From Chondrilla cf. caribensis (Eukaryota > Porifera > Demospongiae > Chondrillida > Chondrillidae): a stretch of 64,000 bases of DNA. Numbering within the stretch: the first letter of the stretch is position 1; each line of letters starts with the position of its first letter. The translations under genes and the position numbers were made by a program. The notes under the pieces were generated by a model. The model did no database searches. It was not told the origin of the DNA and saw only the letters and a list, made by a program, of their open reading frames with translations. The stretch lies in contig OZ026570.1 of the NCBI GenBank assembly GCA_964020155.1, forward strand, positions 2,181,721 through 2,245,720. The letters run 5' to 3'. Positions 20,561-33,126 of this stretch are shown here, one piece after another.

Positions 20561-22318
20561 CTAGTGTCATTGTCTGCAGTGTGGAATAGGCTATCGAATA
20601 ATACCAAAAATGTACATTTGACAAAAATTGCTTAAGGGCCCTTTTCACTTGCACATACACATATGATAATGATAGGCCTCGAACGATTGCACAATAGGTA
20701 AGATGGTGCAGCTGATTAGTCAAAGCCGGCTTTCTTTGAGCAGCGAAAACAGGTGCTGATTGCAATCTCACCGTGCTATGACGAAGCGTAGGTGATGAAG
20801 AGAGCTGTTGAGTGCCAGAAGCACAAAGAAAGCGGGTAATGAATGGAGTGGATAGGCTAACCTCGATCAGACACCCCCTCAATAAACCACTCGGTAAAAA
20901 CGCAGCGTAAGCGAGGCCGATTGCATTTCAATGTATGCCCTTGTAACGTTGTGTGTACGTAGTAAGCATGCTTTCCCATCTCCGTGGCTCAATTATGTCA
21001 CTAATTTCCAGTGCATTGGTCAGTCATTATTAGTACCATGCACCCATACAAGTGTGTTGTGTGTACCTGTCCTTTAGGACCTACCAGTATTCTGCCACCA
21101 GAGATAATGTAACTATACTCTCACTGTATCCTATACAACGCATATATTACAGTTTCACAAAATATTGCCTATGGACAGGTATTAAGCCCAAGCAAGCATT
21201 AAGAAGTTGTTCTTGGCTGATGTAAGAAGTAAGAAAATTACTAACAAGTGGCGAACCAGCGAAAGGTCAAAAATTAAAGGTCAGTTTGGGACTTCTGCTT
21301 GTTAAATTTTTATCCTCAGCTACTGAAGTTTTGGCTGGAGCTATGGTGCTCATTTTGAAATTAAAAAGTCTTCTAGCATTCGTTTCACCATTCTATCGAC
21401 CTTAGAGGCAATAAATTAGTTACTACTGAGGCTCTGGGACCGTGGGACATAATGTGTGCCAAAGTCGATATCACCCAACTCCTCAACAAGTCTGCAGCAA
21501 CAACCATTGCAGGCTCGCACATCATCCTTAATGCCAGATCAGACGTATGGAACTCATCCCGCCCACTCCTTAACTCACTGTGAACCTTTATCAATGCATG
21601 CTCACTAGGGATTATTATTACCACATAATGCATGATTATGGCTGACTAATTTCATTGTATCACTACCCTTGTCATGCCCAGTTATCCCACTTTTACTGTG
21701 TTTGTCCTGGTACCATGTGACTAGGGTATAATTCAGTTAGTCTCGCGTAGCTCAGACCCGCTTCTTGCCTCCATTTTTATAATTATGACATCATAATTAT
21801 AAAAATGGAGGCAAGAAGCGGGTCTGGGCTACGCGAGACTATAATTCAGTAATTATTTTTTGTACCATGTCACTATGTTATATCTTTGTTTTTGCTTTTC
21901 CTTGCTCTTTAATCCTCCAATCAATGACTTGGCTCTTCCCCCTGTATACAGAAACTAATTGTGTGCAGTCATATTCTTTTATTGCACATCTGTGTTGTTT
22001 ACTGACAAGAAGGTTGTACCTGCACAACAATGGCTTCTATCTCAAACCTTGTACTGAATTGTTACTTGATAGCTACGTATGTACACACGGGTGCTCCACT
22101 TCAATCAATAATGTATAACTGTACTGTTATTATGTGTATCTCATCATAATAGCATAGCACACTAATTTCAATCCTCATGTGGCCTCTTCTTATTTTTTTA
22201 TAAGCTTATGGTAGTTTTGAAATATTGTATGTGTATAATGATTTAGATTGTACACCTAATTACATTTTGTAGACAGTATAATTGCAATATCTGGTTTCCA
22301 AGACGAATATAATCAGCC
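20561..22318. other. Intergenic gap before the receptor locus
   Basis: Apart from the palindromic MITE at 21738-21841, nothing is recognised. A plus frame at ~21437-21585 (PWDIMCAKVDITQLLNKSAA then a stop after LLNSL) and a minus frame at 21633-21385 are open, but neither shows a known motif. Confidence 0.4.
21738..21841. mobile_element. 104-bp palindromic MITE with 9-bp target duplication
   Basis: The element begins TAGTCTCGCGTAGCTCAGAC and ends with the reverse complement. The arms of ~49 bases pair almost perfectly around ATGACATCAT. Both sides carry TAATTCAGT (21729-21737 and 21842-21850), a 9-bp direct duplication. A related half copy is at 31557-31597. Confidence 0.85.
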
Positions 22319-24962
22319 ATGTTCCAGCTGAACACTATGGTCCTGTTCATAATGGTGGTGCTAGTCACCTACCAAGGTCAGTGAGTTGTATGGCATTGTA
22401 TACATGAAGTGTGTACTGTGTGGTGTATGATGGCTTGTGTAGTAACACTGAATAATAATATGTAAAGTTGTGTGTGCTTATAATTAGTGAATATACCCAG
22501 TACAAATTTGTGGAGGTTTAGTGAATGGTCAGATTTCTCTATACGAGTTAAACTTTCTTCATACTTGTGTCTTGTTGCAGGTATTGGCACAGTTCATGCT
22601 GACCCCACCATCTCCACATCCACTCCTACTCCATGTTATGGAGATGTAGTGACTCTAGTGTGCCACCATCCTGAGGTGGTTAGCAACCGTACCAGATACT
22701 TTATTCAAACACCAGTATGGAAGGAGAATGATGCAACAATTACTATTGCTGATGGCACCATGTACACTACTGAGACTGTAGCAGACCTCACCCATACAAT
22801 CCTTAACATAACCATCACAGTGGACCACTTCAAGGACAAGTCCCTTATGTACTCTTGTGAGCTCATATTGGCTGGTGAGAAAGGAGGACCTACTAGTGAA
22901 GTGGAAACTAGTGGAGTGGTCACTGTAGATCCTGTTGGTGAGTTGTTAGTACATACAAATGTGTACATATGTACGGTTATCGCCTCATCTGACTGTCATC
23001 GATGTTTATCGTACATTGATTCACCTACTCGATACTTGAAGTAGTATTTTACTACTCACTAATACACATGCAAGGATGTGGCAGGCTGGATCTTGAGGCC
23101 AATGCTTCATACAGTACTGGTTCATGTTTCATGAGGTGTATAATTCTGAGCTCTGATAAGGAAATTTACCTTATAATTTATAAACTGTCCCATTGGTTGT
23201 TGCACCATGCCACTTCAATGTATGCTGGCCTGTTTCTGTTAACCTTACTTTTGTGTTGAGATAATATAAGTGTCATCCACTGCACATATTTTTGTGTCCT
23301 GATTCTGACTGTGTTAATACTGAAAAGACTGTTGGAAAACCGAGAATGGTTGACTCTAGTTGCATAATCATTATGCATATCATAGAACAGTGAATTCGTG
23401 TTAATTCACCGCTTTTTATCCGCCACACTTCCACAGTACCAATATAATCTACAATCAATCAATAATGTTTATCCAATTAATCTTCCAAACATGCTTATCC
23501 ATCATATATTTGGAGAATGAACTGTGTCAGATTAACAAGTACTCACTGGACATTCACATGCATATGCAATCACATACATACTTGACATTTCTCACATAAT
23601 GTACTGTCCATTACTGTAGATACAAGTGGTCTATCCTATACATAAGTACAATATGGTATACCCACACCTTCAGCTCAGAATCTACGTCTGTAGACTTCAA
23701 ATGGCTTCACTCTAGAATAGTACAGTTATGGAGGAAGTCTTATCATACATATCTTACATATCACTCCAACTCCCCTTTGTACTGTATGTACATCCAATAC
23801 AGACATAGTACCCATTATGTACATGTGGTTCAATATCACATTCTTAAGTTTTCTGAATGTTATTAATGTATGTTTTATTGTTTATTTATAACACTTTGTT
23901 CAATGCACATGCACACGCAGTGGATACCCTTCCACCAAAGATCACTACAATAGAGTCTCTCACTGAGAGAACCTCACTAACATGGGCACACAACACAGTG
24001 TGTTTTAATACTAGTGACATAGAGTATGTAGTGAGCTGGGTGAACCTGGCTAGTGGTGGTGGTCTCAATGGTACTACTGTGGAGAGGAACTTCACTATAA
24101 GGACTGGAGCAAGGGGGGTGTACCGGGTGAGGATTACAGCTACAGTGAAGGGTTTGTCCAGTGTAGAAGGTGTGACTGCTAACTGGGAGGATAGCAGAAC
24201 TGAAGTACTTGTACATACAGGTGTGTTACCATTGTGTGTGGTGTGTGCATGTCCAAAGATTCACACTCAGAATGTCTCACTACTGCACAGGCCAGCCCAC
24301 TGCTCAAGGTACTGAGGGTGGTGCCTGTTTTGGACGGCCATTTTATCTGACATGTCTCCATGGCTACACTACTGACTATGAAATCACCTGGAATGTGAAT
24401 GGAAGTGGGATTGGGACCAGTGACCAGGTGTATGTTGTGAGAGGGGACATTTTGGTAGTCACGAACATCACTGAGGACCTCTTCTCCAATGTTATCACCA
24501 CCTTCAAATGCTCTGTTCTCCTTAATGGGACTAAGTTCACTGGAGAGCCCTACCTCATGGACCCTATTGGTACAGTGACTCTTGTTTTGTGTGTTATGTG
24601 GAGTGTGCTTCATGGGATGTTTACTCTCTTCAGAGCGTTCCCTCTCACCAGAGGTGACTGTTACAGACTCCACCCCCTACACTATATTGCTGACACTGGA
24701 CCACTCGGAGGTGTGTTTTGAGGACTACACTTTCCACTACAAGATCTCTTGGAGCAGAGAAGATGGAGACTGGTCCCTTCCAGTAAAGGTCCCCCTCATC
24801 CCGTCCTACACCATCACTGGTCTGAGTCCAGGTAGCGAATACAGAGTGAGAGTGTTAGCCGAGAGCAAGGAGGACTCTACTGTAGTCAGTGGACTAGTCA
24901 CTGTCAGAGCAGTCACACTCAGTCAAACAGGTGTGTGTTGAATACTGTCACACATGCGTACC

Positions 24963-25012
<50 letters not shown>

Positions 25013-26355
25013 TGCACATGCACATACGTATACAATACGCACACATTCTCCATCAGCTTGTATTTTGCCTTTTGAGTCCTGACGTATAACAGAAAGGTAT
25101 CCCTAATTTGGAGTTCATATTATATCCACGTTCCCAGAATGGTGTCCTTATTATAAAGGGTTTATTACAAATGTTAAAATTCATTAAATCAACTTTATTG
25201 TTTGTATTTACGTTTGATGCACCCCCTTCAGGTCCTATTATTGGTTTAGCAACCTGTTTCGGGCTCTTCTTTGCCATCACAATAGCCATGTCAACTATTC
25301 TCCTAGTTTTACATGTGAAATCCTTTATTAAGAAGAAGAAAAATGAGAAAGGTAAATATATATATAATATGTATATAACCAAATGTTTATATATAATACA
25401 ATATATATATATATGTATCCCGATTGGTGATATTGTCACTTAAGATCAAAGGGACCGACTGGAGTACATTCGCGATGTACTGGGGTACAACACTGACCCT
25501 ATTAGTGATGTACCCCGGTTTTTAAGTGACTGGTATTAATTAATCAACAGCCATTGTTATGTGCCCATTGTGTATTCTCGGCTGTATTCTTGGCTCGAGC
25601 CACTCTTCGACGTTCTCAACGGGGTTAAAAAAAGGTTGTTTCTCGGATTTTCTATTAGAAGAAGCCATAACCGTTGCTTCGTTCGTTCGGTAAGTATTCT
25701 AAGCATCGTTGGTTCGGCAAGTTTCCTCTTTCGTTCGGTAAATACTCTGATACTCGTTGGTTAGGCAAGTTTCTTTGTTCGTTCGGTAAATACTCTGAAA
25801 CTCGTTGGTTCGATGAGTTTCTTGGTTCGCTCGGTAAATATTCCAAGGCTCGTGGATTCGGCCATTTTCCTCGTTCGTTCGAAAAGCTGTCCTGAAGCTC
25901 GTTGGTTCGGGAAGTACGGGCGGCCAAGAAGCCATCTGAATTGGTTGATAGCCACCTCCAGCTCTTTGAGAAAATCATCTTTTTCGATGTCGTGAACGAA
26001 ATCCATCTCTGCTACTCGTAATCGTGCTATCGAACGGGATACATAATAGTTGTACCCCGCTTTTGGTCGGTACATGGGAATGTACTGAGCTGATATCAGT
26101 TAATTAACCTCGGGCTGCGCCCTCGGTTAATTAACTGATATCCGCTCAGTACATTTCCCATGTACCGACCAAAAGCGGGGTACAACTATTACATATATAT
26201 ATACTGCATATATGTTTGATGTTCACTATCACATTTTGGTCCTTACAGAATCCAACAATGTTGACTCGGACAATGACGTTCCCATGACAACAAACCCCAG
26301 CTACATGAGGACCACTCTGTCCACCCCACACCCTGCACCCACTCATGTCATTTAG
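22319..26355 (+). CDS. Ig/FN3 single-pass membrane receptor, short form
   Basis: Seven exons close in frame to 505 aa: 22319-22376, 22581-22937, 23921-24220, 24291-24569, 24634-24930, 25232-25351, 26249-26355. The signal peptide is MFQLNTMVLFIMVVLVTYQ (residues 1-~26). Ig-like domain ~27-138 has Cys in VTLVCHHPE and MYSCELI. FN3 ~139-238 has SLTWAHN and GVYRVRITA. A second Ig-like domain is at ~239-331 and a second FN3 at ~332-430 (YTITGLSPGSEYRVRVLAE). The membrane segment is ~433-458 (GLATCFGLFFAITIAM), followed by KKKK and a ~50-residue tail with an NPxY-type NPSY near the end. Every internal intron is phase 1, the mark of shuffled modules. It is probably a cell-surface recognition or adhesion protein; the ligand is unknown. 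The last intron contains a mobile element. Exons 1-5 can also splice in frame to the exon at 27019. Confidence 0.8.
23398..23548 (+). mobile_element. pogo-like MITE (family A) in receptor intron 2
   Basis: It begins CAGTGAATTCGTGTTAATTC and ends TCAGATTAACAAGTACTCAC plus TG, with the internal string CAGTACCAATATAATCTACA shared with the copies at 60.2, 61.0, 62.3 and 63.1 kb. The TA target sites have decayed. Confidence 0.7.
24964..25010. repeat. CA microsatellite in receptor intron
   Basis: CA run of about 45 bases immediately after the donor of receptor exon 5. Confidence 0.9.
25440..26192. mobile_element. Inserted element with 48-bp tandem repeats and large palindrome
   Basis: It lies in the last intron of the short receptor form. 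The left part contains GTACTGGGGTACAAC and GATGTACCCCGG. In the middle, about five 48-bp units (25676-25913; GTTCGTTCGGTAAATACTCT core) encode 16-residue repeats in several frames. The minus-strand ORF 26075-25761 contains MDFVHDIEKDDFLKELEVA followed by TERTKKL repeats. The right part, 26044-26192, is a near-perfect palindrome with arms of ~65 bases (GTACCCCGCTTTTGGTCGGT) around CGGGCTGCGCCCTCG. The whole fits a non-autonomous or decayed DNA element; the superfamily was not identified. Confidence 0.6.
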
Positions 26356-26783
26356 AAACACTATAACTCTTACTACTGATCTGATCAATACATAATTACA
26401 TTCCAAATGCAATCATGTGCATTCAAGTGCTAGCATATGTGTCCAGTCACGTGCTAGCATACATGGGCAGTCACGATAGTCTATAGAATAGATATGAACT
26501 GAAAGTATCAGTGAACACCTGGACCTGGTGCTTTCAACTGATAGTTAACCCTTTAACATGTCATGTTACATCACCTTAACCCTTCTGTTAGCAGGTTTAT
26601 ATATCACTGACCGGTGTACATAATTATTATGTACTTGAATCGTTCATTTGTACATATGTAATATTGTGTGTATATTACGTGCAGTATGCGTGAGTCTTAC
26701 TTTTATTTACTCTCGAGTCTACTGCTTTCCAACAACACTTAGTTGTGAAGTGTTTCAACTGATAGGACCAAGGACATACGTAC
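26356..26783. other. Gap between receptor units
   Basis: I searched for a signal-peptide exon ending in phase 1 that could start the second receptor unit and found none. It holds short AT-rich sequence with two ~22-base direct repeats (GTGCTAGCATA units near 26430-26465). Confidence 0.5.
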
Positions 26784-26951
26784 ATAGGTAGAAGACATTC
26801 CTTCAGTTCTCACATTCCAAACACTTCCACATCTGTTCATTAGTTTATGGATTTGTTGAGATTCATCCGTAATATTTTCACCAATCTTGTATCGACCACG
26901 CTTAGTGTTTGGTAGTTCATATGATGAACACGTGCAAGTGATTGAACCACC
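26784..26951 (-). CDS. Candidate isolated exon on the minus strand, GAS2-like pattern
   Basis: On the minus strand an acceptor TAATTGCAG precedes 56 codons, followed by a GTACGTATG donor at 26783. The peptide contains ITCTCSSYELPNTKRGRYKI and WNVRTEG. The spacing of CxC, GRYKIG and VWNVRTEG recalls the GAS2 microtubule-binding domain (RYRIGD ... VMVRVGGGW), but the match is partial. No partner exon on this strand was found, so it could be an exon fragment, a pseudogene or chance. Confidence 0.25.
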
Positions 26952-27018
26952 CTGCAATTACATGCATTAGCGGATATGTTAATAAGCCTTGAAACATGCA
27001 TACTCTTGTATGCTACAG

Positions 27019-30000
27019 ATCTGGTCCCACCTCACATCACGAACATAGACGCTCTGGAGTCCAAGATCACTGTTAGATGGACCCCCCAACCCTGTAATAA
27101 TGCTGTGATGTATAATGTGTCCTGGATGTACACCAATGATGATGGTACTACTACTACTGCTAGTGGAGTCTCTGACCAGGTCACCAACTACACTATCCCA
27201 ACCTTTGTACAAGGAGTGTACACTGTGTCAGTCCAAGCTGCTGATAGTATGGGTAATGTAGGACCAGCAGCTAGTGAATTGGTGAAATCCAGTGAGTACT
27301 ATAGCTCCACACTCTATCTTGATGATAGTGTAATGATCAATTCTTCTCTCTGTAGCCTACCCTCGACCCACTACTGATGCTCCTCCTTGTGAGGACAGAT
27401 GGCTTAATCTAACATGTCTACTCAGTGGACTATACCATGATAGGAGATCACATTTCATCTGGATGGATGGGAATGGTCCACTTGATAACTCTACTCCATA
27501 CAGCATCACCGGTGCTCAGTTGATGATAGCTAACATCAGTGCTTTGAGTGGCGAGGATCACAAGGCTATTCGATGCTGTGAAGTCTTGAGCAATGGAATA
27601 GTAGTGAAAGGTGTACAATACTACGTGGAACCACTCAGTACGTAGTTACATAAATTTGGTGTCACCATTACTACTTCATTTCTAGATATGTAGAGTAACT
27701 ACACTGTTAGTTTTAATATAATTAACCCTTCTCTCCTCTCCACCAGCCCACCCAGGTCCTCCTGAAGTAACTATAGCAACAACAGGTTCCACTATCATTT
27801 TAACATGGAACACTGCACTACATTGTTTCGAGTCTGAAAAGTTCACCTTTGTTGTAATTTGGAATGAGATTGGAAGTGGGACCAGTACCAATGTGACCAC
27901 CTCATCCTCTCCATACACCATCAGTGGACTCCAACCTGGTACCTCTTATCAGATCAGTTTACAAGTTGTGGGTGGATTGGGAGTGGTCAGTGGAATCAGT
28001 GTGCTTAATGTAACAACACTTGGTAAGTGGAATCTAATAGTGTAGCTTCATGTGCTCAACTGTAAGTATGTACAAGTGTATTTGTTAGGAAGTCAATGTT
28101 ACATATGTCCACGTGAAGCACATCTCCTGACCCACCAGGTGACCACACCTCATGAAAATAATTATAATATTATAACAATAATCAGTAGTGGAATCTACTG
28201 TGCACAATGTGATAGTGTGTGCAGTCTAGTGTATACATGTTGTATATGGTGTACTTATGTACATGGTGTGTGCTTTACATGGTGTGTGTGGTGTACATGG
28301 TGTGTGTGGTGAACATGGTGTATGTGATGTACATGGTGTGTGTGGCGTACATGGTGTGTGTGGTGAACATGGTGTATGTGATGTACATGGTGTGTGTGGT
28401 GAACATGGTGTATGTGATGTACATGGTGTGTGTGGCGTACATGGTGTGTGTGGTGAACATGGTGTATGTGATGTACATGGTGTGTGTGGTGAACATGGTG
28501 TATGTGATGTACATGGTGTGTGTGGTGTACATGGTACATACAACATCCCCAACACAGCTGATGTACATACAACATCCCCAGCACACCTGCATGATGTACG
28601 TATGTGCATATTTACATATGATGTATCCTCTGATACACTGCAAGATCGATAATGTAATTTGTCTCATTTGTAATTTCATCAATGTGTACGATTAGCAACT
28701 TATGTGTAAATCTGATTGACAATTTTTGTTCAAAGAACTTGAATCTGGACCAAAATTGTGACTTTTACCTCAATCTGACTCCCTATGCGATGGAAACAAT
28801 TAACCTTGCAAATACTGCTCGAAACTTGTCCGTTGACCTGTGCTACATGGCTTATGTATACACAGATTTTCCTTTGATCTACCCCTCAACCAGGATACAA
28901 AATTAACTCTATAAGATATGTTTTGAACTTAACGTACATATGTACTGGTTACTCTATTGATACATATGCTACTTATTAAAGGTTGTTTGGTGAGTTTGAC
29001 AAGAATTGCTGTGAACTAAAGGAGGAGTTTGCAAACAAGAGATTTGGTAATTTATTGTAGTATTGTACTTATTGATCTTCATTATATTTCCATAGCTGAG
29101 ACACCTACAGAAGGATACAACTCTACCACTGTTGCTGCCATTGCTGGTGTTGTTTCAGTAATAATCATTATGACTGTTCTCATAGCAATTGCTCTTGTGG
29201 TATCTCATTGTCGAAAGACAAGTGTACGAGGAAACTATGACACTGGACCCAGGGAACATGTATGTGAAGTGTACTTATACAAACTGTGTGCTGTGTTTGT
29301 ACCGTGAGTCTACCAGGTGGTTGTAGTATGTGTATATGTGTGTATTCTTGAAAGCCAAACCACTGCATCACTAATGCTGTCATTTACCAGGACCCCAATC
29401 CACCAGCCTCCAGTAATCCCTCCAGTAATAGGATGTCTGGAACATTTCGTTATGCTCAAGTTGACTTTGAAAGGAATCCTCAAACTAGAATTCCTCCTCC
29501 TCCTGTGGAGGGAGTGACATATGCAGAACCCGTAGGAGTTGGAGAGGAAGATGTGAGTGTTTGTGTACATGGACACTCAGTGTTGACCCTATTGTGTGTG
29601 TGGCTACTTATCTGTGTTCTCTTGTAGAGTCAGGCAAATGATGGTGAAACCAAGTCAGAATTACCTACTAAACAAAAGCTCTGTCACAACGGTAAAATAT
29701 GTATGTATAATTCAATATACATCTTTGCATATTGTTATGACACTCATTTTATACTCTTACTTCAGTCGAGAAGTTTAGATTTGATGTAGTTGATGCTCTT
29801 GTGTCAATTGGAGTGCGTTACTCTGGTGTGGAAACAGGAGTCCCACACTTCACTGCAGATTACAATGGCATCCATTTTGTTGTCACCTGCATGTACACTT
29901 CATCTGATGTGACACTTGAAGACATCGGCCATGTTGTTGAAGCCAAGCAAGTGACTGGCTCCACCAAGGGTCTCCTGATATCAAACCAGTCCACCATCCC

Positions 30001-33000
30001 ATCCAAGTGCCTTCTAACACTGGAGGATGCTGGTTGTCAGTTTGTGCCTGTTGGTGGGTATGGGGAGAAAGGATGGGAGGACAGGATGATTGACAAGTTC
30101 AAAGATGTCTTACCCAAAGTAGCCAATGGTGATTATGAGGTCGGTTCCTCCATCTTGACAGTACATTGTACAAGGTGATATGATCATCTACCTCTCATAA
30201 CAGAGTGAAGAAGACCTTCCAACCTCTGAACAGGAGACCACTCCTCCACCTTCTTGCATCTTCCAACTAGGAACAGGTCCAGCACCTGTCCATTATAACA
30301 ATAGCAATACTAACAAGGTTACGAACAAGAGGTGGACCTTATCTGATGAACATTGTGTAGAGTCTCGGGAAGAGACACCTGTGAGTATACGCATATGAAT
30401 GCATGTCTGTATGGATGCAACGTGCAGTCAATGTCTGTCCTATTGTATAGCTGTGTCATAATGACTGTTCTACCAGCACTTTCCGAAGCCCTGAGGTGAG
30501 TCACATGATCAGTACTCACAGTACAACACATGTAGTTGGGACGTAAGTAGTTGCACAATATGATACTCGTAACAACTTTCTGTTCACTATGCAAAGTGCT
30601 TGAGTGCATAGAGACAAGTAGCTTCCTCTTTTGGATACATGCACTCAGTGTGTATGTACATGACTCACGAGCCATACATGGTCCACTGCCTCTCTCTATA
30701 TTGTAGAATAAAACATTTACAACCATTGTGAAGACTGAGTTTCATGCACTTGACAATCAAAATGTAAGAGTTATCTTTTCTGAAGTAGCCAATGATGACA
30801 GTGAGGTCAGTTCCTCCATCTTGATCCACTACCTCCCATTACAGAGTGAAGACCTTCAGACCCATGAACAAGTGGTTGACTCTTCACCAGTGGTTTTACC
30901 TAAGTGCCCCCTGCCCACCAAAACTGGTCCTCCCTCTGACTATCAAGGTGGCTACTCATTTGTATATCAAGTGAGTACCCCACCCTCACTACATCACATG
31001 GTGACATATCCATCTTCCTCATTCTCAATGTCCTACATGTAGGATGGATGTACTACGCCCATTGTTGGTGGGCAGTACTCAATATACATGCCTCGAATCA
31101 CCAGTGGATTGTTTATGTCATCCTTCGAGTGCAAACTATCCGATGAGGAGGAAGAGATTTTTTATAAGAGGGTGAGTGTTGCATCGAGTAATAGCCGTAT
31201 TATATTCTGAGTGAAACACAGATGATTGTTCATGTACTGAACTTCTACGTGACTTTAATGATATGAATCAGTACTGTGAATCAGCTGTGTATAATTATAT
31301 TGTATAATAATCAAGTGATTAGTCAATTAACCTCCTGATTCATTCTGCCTGAAAGTGGGTGAAGCCTTGTAAAGATACGTAATGTAGTAATCTTTTAATC
31401 CTTACACTAGCCGCAGTGCATGAGCAGATTTCCACCTTAAAATATGTGCTCAGTGTATCCAATACAATTATTTTGACACGGTCAACTCCATCTCTAAGAA
31501 GAGATACTAATATGCATTGAAACCAGACTATTTTCACTGGGAACACGTCCCACGTTGTAAAATGAAGGCAAGAACGGGTCTTGGCTGCGTGTGACTGACT
31601 AGAAGCCACTTCCAATTCATAGGCCAAGTAGTCTCCCAATGGATGTGATGTGGAGTCTTCCGACTGCTTTGTAGATGCTGCCTGCAGTAACCCCTATATT
31701 ATTCCCATTCAGACTTCTGGTATATAATGCTTGATAGATATATTATGTGGTACTACAATAGACACTCCAAACTACGTAGTTCAGAGTGTCTGTGGTACAT
31801 ATAATCACAACAGTGAATTTATATTATAATTTATATTACGTGAAAAAAAAATTCAAATTTCAAATTACTAATTTGTATTTCTAAGTTCATTATAGAGACT
31901 ATATAAGTTATGCATTGTGATAATATGGTTAGGAATACCTTTCTGCTGAAGACGACCCACAGGGTTAAAACAACCATGTCCAGATGAAGAACTCTCTTCA
32001 ACAGACTGCGTTTCTCAACGCTCCAGAATCCAAATGGATTTTCACCACAACAATAACTTAATTCCTGTTACCCTCATCTAATTACTTCCTATGATTAGTC
32101 AGTTTGTTTCAGTTTGCAGTACTGATGATAATCAGATTCAACATCTAAAGTCAATTAATCAGTTAATTGTCTCAGCTCTAATTCATGCTTTATATTTACA
32201 CTTAGGTCCCCTGGGAGGAGGTGGAGGAAGAGGAAGCAATATGCACCCCAGTGCAAGAAACCCCACTAACTACCTGTTCTCTGGTTTCACCATCAACTGC
32301 TGTCTCTATTGGCAACCTTGAATATCCAGAGGAACCACTCCCTACGGCTGCCTTTGTTGCTAATGTGAAATGTCCAGAAATGCTACCGATGGCTCTCACT
32401 GAATCCTTTTATGAATGTCCTGATGTACTGAAGGCAGCAGATTCCAACATCTCCCCTGAACCAGATTCTGTGGTATGTGTGTGGACTTATATATACATAT
32501 CACTTGCATCCTTTATACTGAAGGTATTTTATGTGCAGTATATACATATATCATGTATGTATGTACGTTTGTGGTTACAGTGTTTTCAGGATAGGTTGCG
32601 GCACACGCATTGCAGTGCTGAAAAATAAACCTTCACTCGTGATTGGTCATATTTCATAGGGAAGTCAATTTTTCAGACATTTAGTAAATCCAAACCAACA
32701 ATTTAAATGTATATCTCCCTAATAGCATCGTACAGGGTGTGTGATTTTTCTCGTCATTGCACCCCAATTTGGCATTAGTGCACTGTGGTTTGTGCATGTC
32801 CTGTACATGTGTTCCTATACACACTTCCCTTTGATCCACCCATTAACCAGAACTCAATCATTTCTGAAAGCACGGACTCTCCGTCAGTGAACCAAACACC
32901 AACACAGTTCAGTGGGAAGACTTACAGCTTTCTTGGTGGCCTTGAAACAGCTTTGCGTCTATCACAGCGTCAACATAACTGGGGATTGTGGACAAGCAAG

Positions 33001-33126
33001 AAGACTGAATCGGTTCAGCATATGCGGAAGAGAAATGATATGGCCTACGATGAAAAGGGAAAGCTGTGTTGTACATTTTTGCTCACCTCTTCCAGACAGC
33101 TCTCCCCCACAGTGGAGCATTGTTAG
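27019..33126 (+). CDS. FN3-Ig-FN3-TM receptor unit with Mrr-like cytoplasmic domain
   Basis: Fourteen exons stay in frame: 27019-27291 (FN3), 27356-27637 (Ig-like), 27747-28022 (FN3, YTISGLQPGTSYQISLQV), 29096-29259 (TM, GVVSVIIIMTVLIAIALVV), 29391-29552, 29628-29691, 29766-30139, 30204-30380, 30451-30495, 30707-30763, 30845-30970, 31043-31171, 32206-32472, 32851-33126. Together they give 2672 nt. No start or signal peptide is evident; ATG 26976 would read through the acceptor. Exons 1-5 of the upstream unit (1291 nt, phase 1) splice in frame to 27019, giving 3963 nt, exactly 1320 codons plus stop. This long form is the favoured model. The tail has Tyr motifs (RYAQV, VTYAEP), acidic and Pro-rich stretches, and at 29766-30139 a globular domain with an Mrr-type pattern (FDVVDALVSIGV, NGIHFVVTCMY, STKGLLIS). 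Function is unknown; signalling is inferred. Confidence 0.7.
28215..28545 (+). repeat. GT-rich minisatellite in receptor intron
   Basis: Units of ~18-36 bases (GTACATGGTGTGTGTGGTG and GAACATGGTGTATGTGAT alternating) fill ~330 bases. Frames here are open on both strands because the units are multiples of three and lack stops; they are not genes. Confidence 0.9.
31557..31597 (-). mobile_element. Half copy of the palindromic MITE
   Basis: AAAATGAAGGCAAGAACGGG followed by TCTTGGCTGCGTGTGACT matches one arm of the element at 21738-21841. The other arm is missing. Confidence 0.55.

Follow-up and report, generated by a model that had tools for sequence, protein, structure and literature searches.

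A 64,000-nucleotide stretch of the genome of the sponge Chondrilla cf. caribensis (contig OZ026570.1, positions 2,181,721 to 2,245,720; hereafter the window) carries a putative membrane receptor gene with FN3 and immunoglobulin (Ig)-like modules and, in its predicted cytoplasmic part, an exon with a predicted restriction endonuclease (REase) fold. We consider it somewhat probable that this exon encodes a pseudo-nuclease with an Mrr-like PD-(D/E)XK fold, its core kept and its catalytic residues lost, and that a family of FN3/Ig membrane receptors, duplicated and arranged in clusters, uses this domain on the cytoplasmic side. The computed basis comprises the predicted fold, the loss of catalytic residues, the size and clustering of the family, a membrane-helix-like segment upstream in most of the regions examined, and tyrosine motifs kept in homologous exons. 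The first-pass annotation of this DNA had drawn attention to the exon, but had missed how large and clustered its family is, as well as the tyrosine motifs that precede the domain.

The REase-fold exon is open between an acceptor AG at 29764-29765 and a donor GT from 30140, translates in a single frame and contains the peptide stretches quoted earlier; its 30 matches in its own genome exceed chance. Nine exons joined by hand give 595 open codons and a stop, with AG/GT borders and matching phases at all eight junctions. They run in the order FN3, Ig-like, FN3, membrane helix, tyrosine-bearing exon, linker, REase-fold exon and tail, and the membrane-helix exon reads in frame into the REase-fold exon through the two exons between them (Table 1). 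A receptor gene model with the domain as its probable tail, as the first-pass annotation proposed, is supported by frame, phases and recurrence in paralogues. The Ig-like exon itself matches nothing in Pfam at E<=1. Among seven exons homologous to it, two match Ig_3 (2.1e-4 and 0.0028), one does so at 0.16 and four give no match. Neither a signal-peptide exon nor a gene start came up when 21500-23900 and 25400-27018 were scanned by simple means. The 3' donor of the domain exon (GTCGGT) is weaker than the GTCAGT of several paralogues, and without splicing at 30140 the frame reaches a stop 12 residues further on; hence, the domain exon could form the protein end in some transcripts.

Table 1. 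Exons of the putative receptor gene, in window coordinates
Feature	Position	Strand	Basis or remark
FN3 exon, ectodomain module 1	27019..27291	+	Pfam fn3 E 1.2e-4, 22.7 bits (cut-off 25); phase 1 out
Ig-like exon, ectodomain module 2	27356..27637	+	Homologous exons hitting Ig_3
FN3 exon, ectodomain module 3	27747..28022	+	Pfam fn3 E 5e-9
Membrane-helix exon (VAAIAGVVSVIIIMTVLIAIALVV)	29096..29259	+	Sequence reading; homologous exons in paralogues
Juxtamembrane exon, tyrosine motifs FRYAQV and VTYAEPV	29391..29552	+	ITIM-like, not strict
Short linker exon	29628..29691	+	In-frame gene model
Catalytically degenerate PD-(D/E)XK (Mrr-like / inactive REase) domain exon	29766..30139	+	Predicted fold, family alignment
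Tail exon 3' of domain	30204..30380	+	In-frame gene model
Possible short last exon (HFPKP, stop)	30477..30494	+	In-frame gene model
Alternative longer tail	30707..33126	+	Exons 30707-30970, 31043-31171, 32206-32472, 32851-33126; open, AG/GT, stop at end

Fold and catalytic positions of the tail domain

A confident structure model of the domain has PD-(D/E)XK proteins as its best structural neighbours, and the model of a paralogue returns the same result, its first short strand not being seen. The alpha-beta-beta-beta-alpha-beta core of the PD-(D/E)XK superfamily is present in the predicted model and its structural neighbours, which supports the Mrr-like fold that had been assigned by eye. At the sequence level, a Pfam scan of 78 family rows yields NA-iREase1 in 16 of them (best E 0.0029) and Mrr_cat in three (best 0.13), no other family being hit at E<=1 in more than two rows. 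The window protein (P0001) and three close paralogues have no Pfam match, including to Mrr_cat and NA-iREase1 for P0001, and a sequence search of P0001 against PDB gives none. A six-frame search of the genome with NA-iREase1 returns zero matches, and the whole modelled protein as query finds no relative having the domain region. NCBIfam readings were inconsistent (methylmalonyl epimerase in 4/78, best 0.022; GrpE in two; one Avs5 at 0.012) and were set aside.

Conservation was read from alignments A1 (24 of 29 own-genome places, with L009, L016, L024, L026 and C1:1507870 dropped as stop-bearing, fragmentary, near-duplicate or split matches) and A4 (P0001 and the relatives P0002-P0085 except P0022, P0028, P0033, P0048, P0058, P0059 and P0060, which leaves 77 of 84); a further alignment, A5, holds 44 of the 84 relatives. 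The correspondence of alignment columns with Mrr was judged by eye from the strands of the model. The window copy has H27, T40 and M42 at the catalytic positions (codons 29846-29848, 29885-29887 and 29891-29893). Position 40, where Mrr has Q/E, is N in 31, T in 25, I in 10, S in 10, V in one and K in one of the 78 rows, so that no row has E, Q or D there; at position 42, where Mrr has K, a single row of 78 keeps it. Aspartate at position 27 occurs in 6/24 rows of A1 and 2/78 of A4. The catalytic D...(D/E/Q)XK residues are thus absent, and what is claimed is a pseudo-nuclease, not a nuclease, in agreement with the earlier remark that a T-C-M in place of Q/E-x-K makes an active enzyme unlikely. 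A VEAK stretch had been offered as a possible unorthodox E-x-K, a suggestion that the alignment does not support: K60 is kept in 72/78 rows but E58 in 37/78, and both lie in a helix of the model.

The hydrophobic core is kept in nearly all of the 78 rows (F37 in 72, L70 in 76, I77 in 76, L85 in 76, C90 in 75, F92 in 77). Some paralogues retain part of the catalytic pattern. The copy on contig C19 (L025) reads PDIHGSYLGITFVASCK, matched by eye, with D and K kept and S replacing Q (compared with D...VQAK in Mrr), and L012-type copies, L027-type copies and L022 retain D. A separate place on contig C22 (L029, C22:194044-194244) reads GVDF...GQCK and matches Mrr_cat above its cut-off at 29.9 bits, the one Mrr_cat match in the genome; it apparently keeps the catalytic residues.

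Family size, receptor context and constraint

The 124-residue exon query finds 30 matches at 29 places in its own genome (137 Mb in 37 contigs, the window lying on C25), with E from 2.7e-81 to 0.018. Three matches are weaker than 1e-3. With other subfamilies as queries, and with tblastn against 20 fetched regions, one of the three is confirmed and six places at E<=1e-3 are added; a second of the three is closely related to the confirmed copy. This brings the family to about 34 copies. All lie on contig C1 (1.5-1.65 Mb and 7.65-8.49 Mb) except the window's own and one on C19. No internal stop occurs in 28/30 matches; two hold a stop, and some are fragments. At four places on C1 (L120, L122, L124 and L126; 8.06, 8.16, 8.23 and 8.31 Mb), two REase-fold exons follow one another on the same strand, in one gene or in neighbours.

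Protein searches with family profiles returned 59 and 27 relatives, two common to both, as exon-sized frames on ENA contigs; P0028 is the window's own. Some ENA contigs hold copies identical or near-identical to those of the own genome, and others hold for the most part copies that share 65-87% identity with the closest own copy among those fetched. Judged by these identities, the latter contigs would represent a second genome or haplotype having the same family. One of them, P0032 on a contig of 2040101 bases, is 85% identical to the window exon and is preceded by similar translated intron sequence; it is probably an orthologue or a very diverged allele.

The receptor context recurs among the paralogues. 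When the 2.5 kb upstream of the domain were scanned in the 20 fetched regions, a hydrophobic segment of 21 residues, free of simple repeats, was present on the domain's strand in 16 and on the other strand in three; a stricter threshold leaves 14 versus 0. FN3 or Ig-like exons precede the domain in 11/20 regions at E<=1e-3. The ectodomain reaches beyond this family: its search, in which 140 of 349 candidates were scored, gave at least 151 matches at E<=0.01, and C1, C13 and C24 hold many of them. Of 30 tabulated places of the second FN3 module (FN3b), nine are followed by a REase-fold exon at a distance of up to 8 kb; the 12 places on C13 or C24 are not among these nine. No tyrosine-kinase tail for the same ectodomain on C13 appears among the matches listed of the kinase search. 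That search used family PF07714 and scored 133 of 1258 candidates; it gave at least 156 matches in the genome, which form clusters on C14, C5, C3 and other contigs. Such a kinase expansion, like the short introns, may fit a sponge; in a look for a silicatein, a marker of sponges, the one peptidase gene read was an ordinary cathepsin with CGSCWAF.

Between membrane helix and domain, the window gene carries two tyrosines 23 residues apart. The immunoreceptor tyrosine-based inhibitory motif (ITIM) has the consensus [SIVL]xYxx[ILV] in the cytoplasmic part of receptors. The tyrosine exon was located by homology in six paralogues, and all seven genes, the window's included, keep Yxx[VI] at the first tyrosine and V[TI]YA[EN]P at the second. 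In a shuffle test that disregards kinship among the genes, Yxx[ILV] in 7/7 exons was reached by 4 of 5000 shuffles, and a strict ITIM in 3/7 by 67 of 5000.

Selection was gauged by pairwise Nei-Gojobori ratios of nonsynonymous to synonymous divergence (omega), skipping the stop codon in the L118 Ig exon. Median omega for the domain is 0.70, 0.46, 0.34 and 0.11 in four subfamilies (28, 21, 6 and 1 pairs). Ectodomain medians are 0.93 for the first FN3 module (FN3a), 0.85 for Ig and 0.83 for FN3b (7, 7 and 6 genes; 21, 21 and 15 pairs), and single pairs exceed 1, up to 3.2, at low dS; these ectodomain values are uncertain because of low dS and likely gene conversion. The pattern fits an inner domain that may be more constrained and an outer part that may be loosely constrained or diversifying.

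Interpretation and known parallels

Several results weigh against a receptor-borne, Mrr-like pseudo-nuclease. The Foldseek check that had been recommended, taken by itself, returned one solved match at E<=0.001, with a TM-score of 0.43, and lower rows include unrelated folds (APOBEC, integrase, K-Ras). In the Pfam scans, no domain sequence was seen above a curated cut-off, no REase-family row of the 78-member scan fell below E 0.0029, the 16 NA-iREase1 matches come from related copies and are hence not independent, and the relative L017 reaches 15.1 bits against a cut-off of 27. Sequence-profile searches of PDB gave just weak unrelated matches such as TCP-1 zeta and P-II. An hhalign comparison with a profile built from 81 E. 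coli-type Mrr sequences did not reach significance (probability 0.49%, E 0.12), the alignment nonetheless lying in the expected register. Sequence homology to Mrr stays under curated thresholds, so the case for descent from Mrr-like enzymes is made by the predicted fold, by the residues that the C19 copy has kept and by weak profile hits that recur. On the receptor side, 9/20 regions have no FN3 or Ig exon upstream at E<=1e-3, the window gene has the core YxxV only and no strict ITIM, and no tyrosine exon was recognised in L118, L120 and L130, which were also scanned. Similar exons in seven more regions were picked by the motif itself, which biases the strict count of 9/14. Domain omega also rises to 1.12 in the window-like subfamily.

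That last value, together with the stops and fragments among the copies, speaks for copies that are decaying or neutral, with a functionless tail domain. We regard this as very unlikely given the 28/30 matches free of internal stops, core residues in more than 90% of rows and median omega of 0.11 to 0.46 in the three other subfamilies. Continued action on nucleic acid, whether as an unorthodox active nuclease or as a catalytically dead DNA- or RNA-binding sensor, is unlikely; the predicted fold and K60, which could be a relocated lysine, speak for it, yet none of the canonical places (positions 27, 40 and 58) holds a conserved acid. An error of the gene model, by which neighbouring exons were wrongly joined and the receptor was given a REase-fold exon from a different transcript, is quite unlikely. 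The gene model was built from sequence alone, the signal-peptide exon is missing from the simple scan, the donor 3' of the domain is weak, and another membrane exon at about 25232 makes the local gene borders uncertain. Against such an error stand the open frame and matching phases across nine exons, the strand bias of membrane-type segments, far commoner on the domain's strand, and the recurrence of FN3-Ig-FN3 or juxtamembrane exons upstream of the domain in several paralogues. A generic alpha/beta sandwich, for instance of receiver/CheY-like type, with superficial nuclease likeness appears extremely unlikely, as the best nuclease-type rows stand approximately 3 to 4 Z units above the rival rows in both models and the Pfam names common to more than two members are REase families only. 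The N-terminal domain of RPB5 is itself REase-like.

If the receptor-borne pseudo-nuclease is accepted, a mechanism can be sketched. Ligand binding by the FN3-Ig-FN3 part would lead to phosphorylation of the two tyrosines, which would recruit SH2 proteins in signalling like that of ITIM or immunoreceptor tyrosine-based switch motifs (ITSM). The pseudo-nuclease may act as a protein-interaction, docking or assembly module; REase-fold domains frequently dimerise. The expansion of the family and the weak constraint on its ectodomains suggest that variable targets are recognised, either self/non-self or microbes. A bolder and distinctly tentative proposal concerns the C1 and C25 genes together: they would form a complex with which an early-branching animal recognises self/non-self or microbes, and their receptors would have taken over an inactivated restriction-enzyme fold, of the general kind that NACHT immune proteins are named for, as an adaptor for signalling next to the ITIM-like tyrosines.

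Among known domains, the inactive REases of NACHT proteins offer perhaps the nearest parallel. NA-iREase1 (PF22722, NACHT-associated inactive Restriction Endonuclease 1) is likewise a REase-type domain named inactive, as its Pfam name states; unlike it, the domain here is attached to a putative membrane receptor and matches below the cut-off. Mrr_cat (PF04471), of the E. coli type IV restriction enzyme Mrr, shares the order helix, D-strand, QxK-strand, helix and G-hydrophobic strand, whereas the window copy lacks the D, the Q/E and the K. The CRISPR ancillary nuclease Can2, an active enzyme, and VC1899 and AF1548, both listed without function, are PDB entries with 10 to 13% identity and no receptor context. 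Pseudo-enzymes are familiar as receptor parts in the case of kinases; for a nuclease pseudo-enzyme in this role, no precedent was found in open-licence literature. The earlier statement that no described receptor has such a tail agrees with that search, in which no receptor with this combination was found; it leaves subscription journals mostly outside its coverage and cannot prove absence. If the bolder proposal is true, a prokaryotic-type immunity domain was reused as an animal receptor tail. Many clustered receptors that carry both ITIM-like tyrosines and a dead restriction-enzyme fold would join two themes that are usually separate: how animal immunity has reused conflict domains of prokaryotes, and how early in evolution recognition by ITIM-type signalling began. 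The family supplies concrete candidate genes for bench work.

The nearest functional parallels may be the receptors of the Hydractinia Alr locus and Botryllus FcoR, families of allorecognition loci described with ITIM-type motifs in the parts of PMC12065747 consulted. The FcoR ectodomain given there combines Ig and sushi modules, compared with FN3-Ig-FN3 here, and those parts mention no nuclease-fold tail for Alr or FcoR receptors (PMC12065747). Receptors of Alr/FcoR type are encoded by clustered polymorphic genes that control fusion or rejection; of these traits, clustering is the one observed in the present family.

Neighbouring features of the window

A second receptor lies directly upstream (window 23900-27018), with two matched FN3-type exons, an Ig-like exon recognised by eye between them, the membrane exon mentioned above and a short tail ending at 26355; similar membrane helices occur upstream in L113, L118, L120 and L121. 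The phase-1 end of its last FN3 exon joins in frame to the FN3 exon at 27019, so the two receptors could belong to a single gene that uses alternative membrane exons. Within the alternative longer tail, positions 30785-30850 lie in an exon and carry a second copy of the sequence that spans the 3' border of the domain exon and runs into the following intron (VANDDSEVSSSIL...), left over from a partial duplication. Two nested inverted repeats at 26039-26196, with arms of 42 and 40 bases that are 95% and 90% complementary, resemble a small mobile element or hairpin. Minisatellites occupy 25679-25915 (period 48 bases) and 28258-28535 (period 18 bases).

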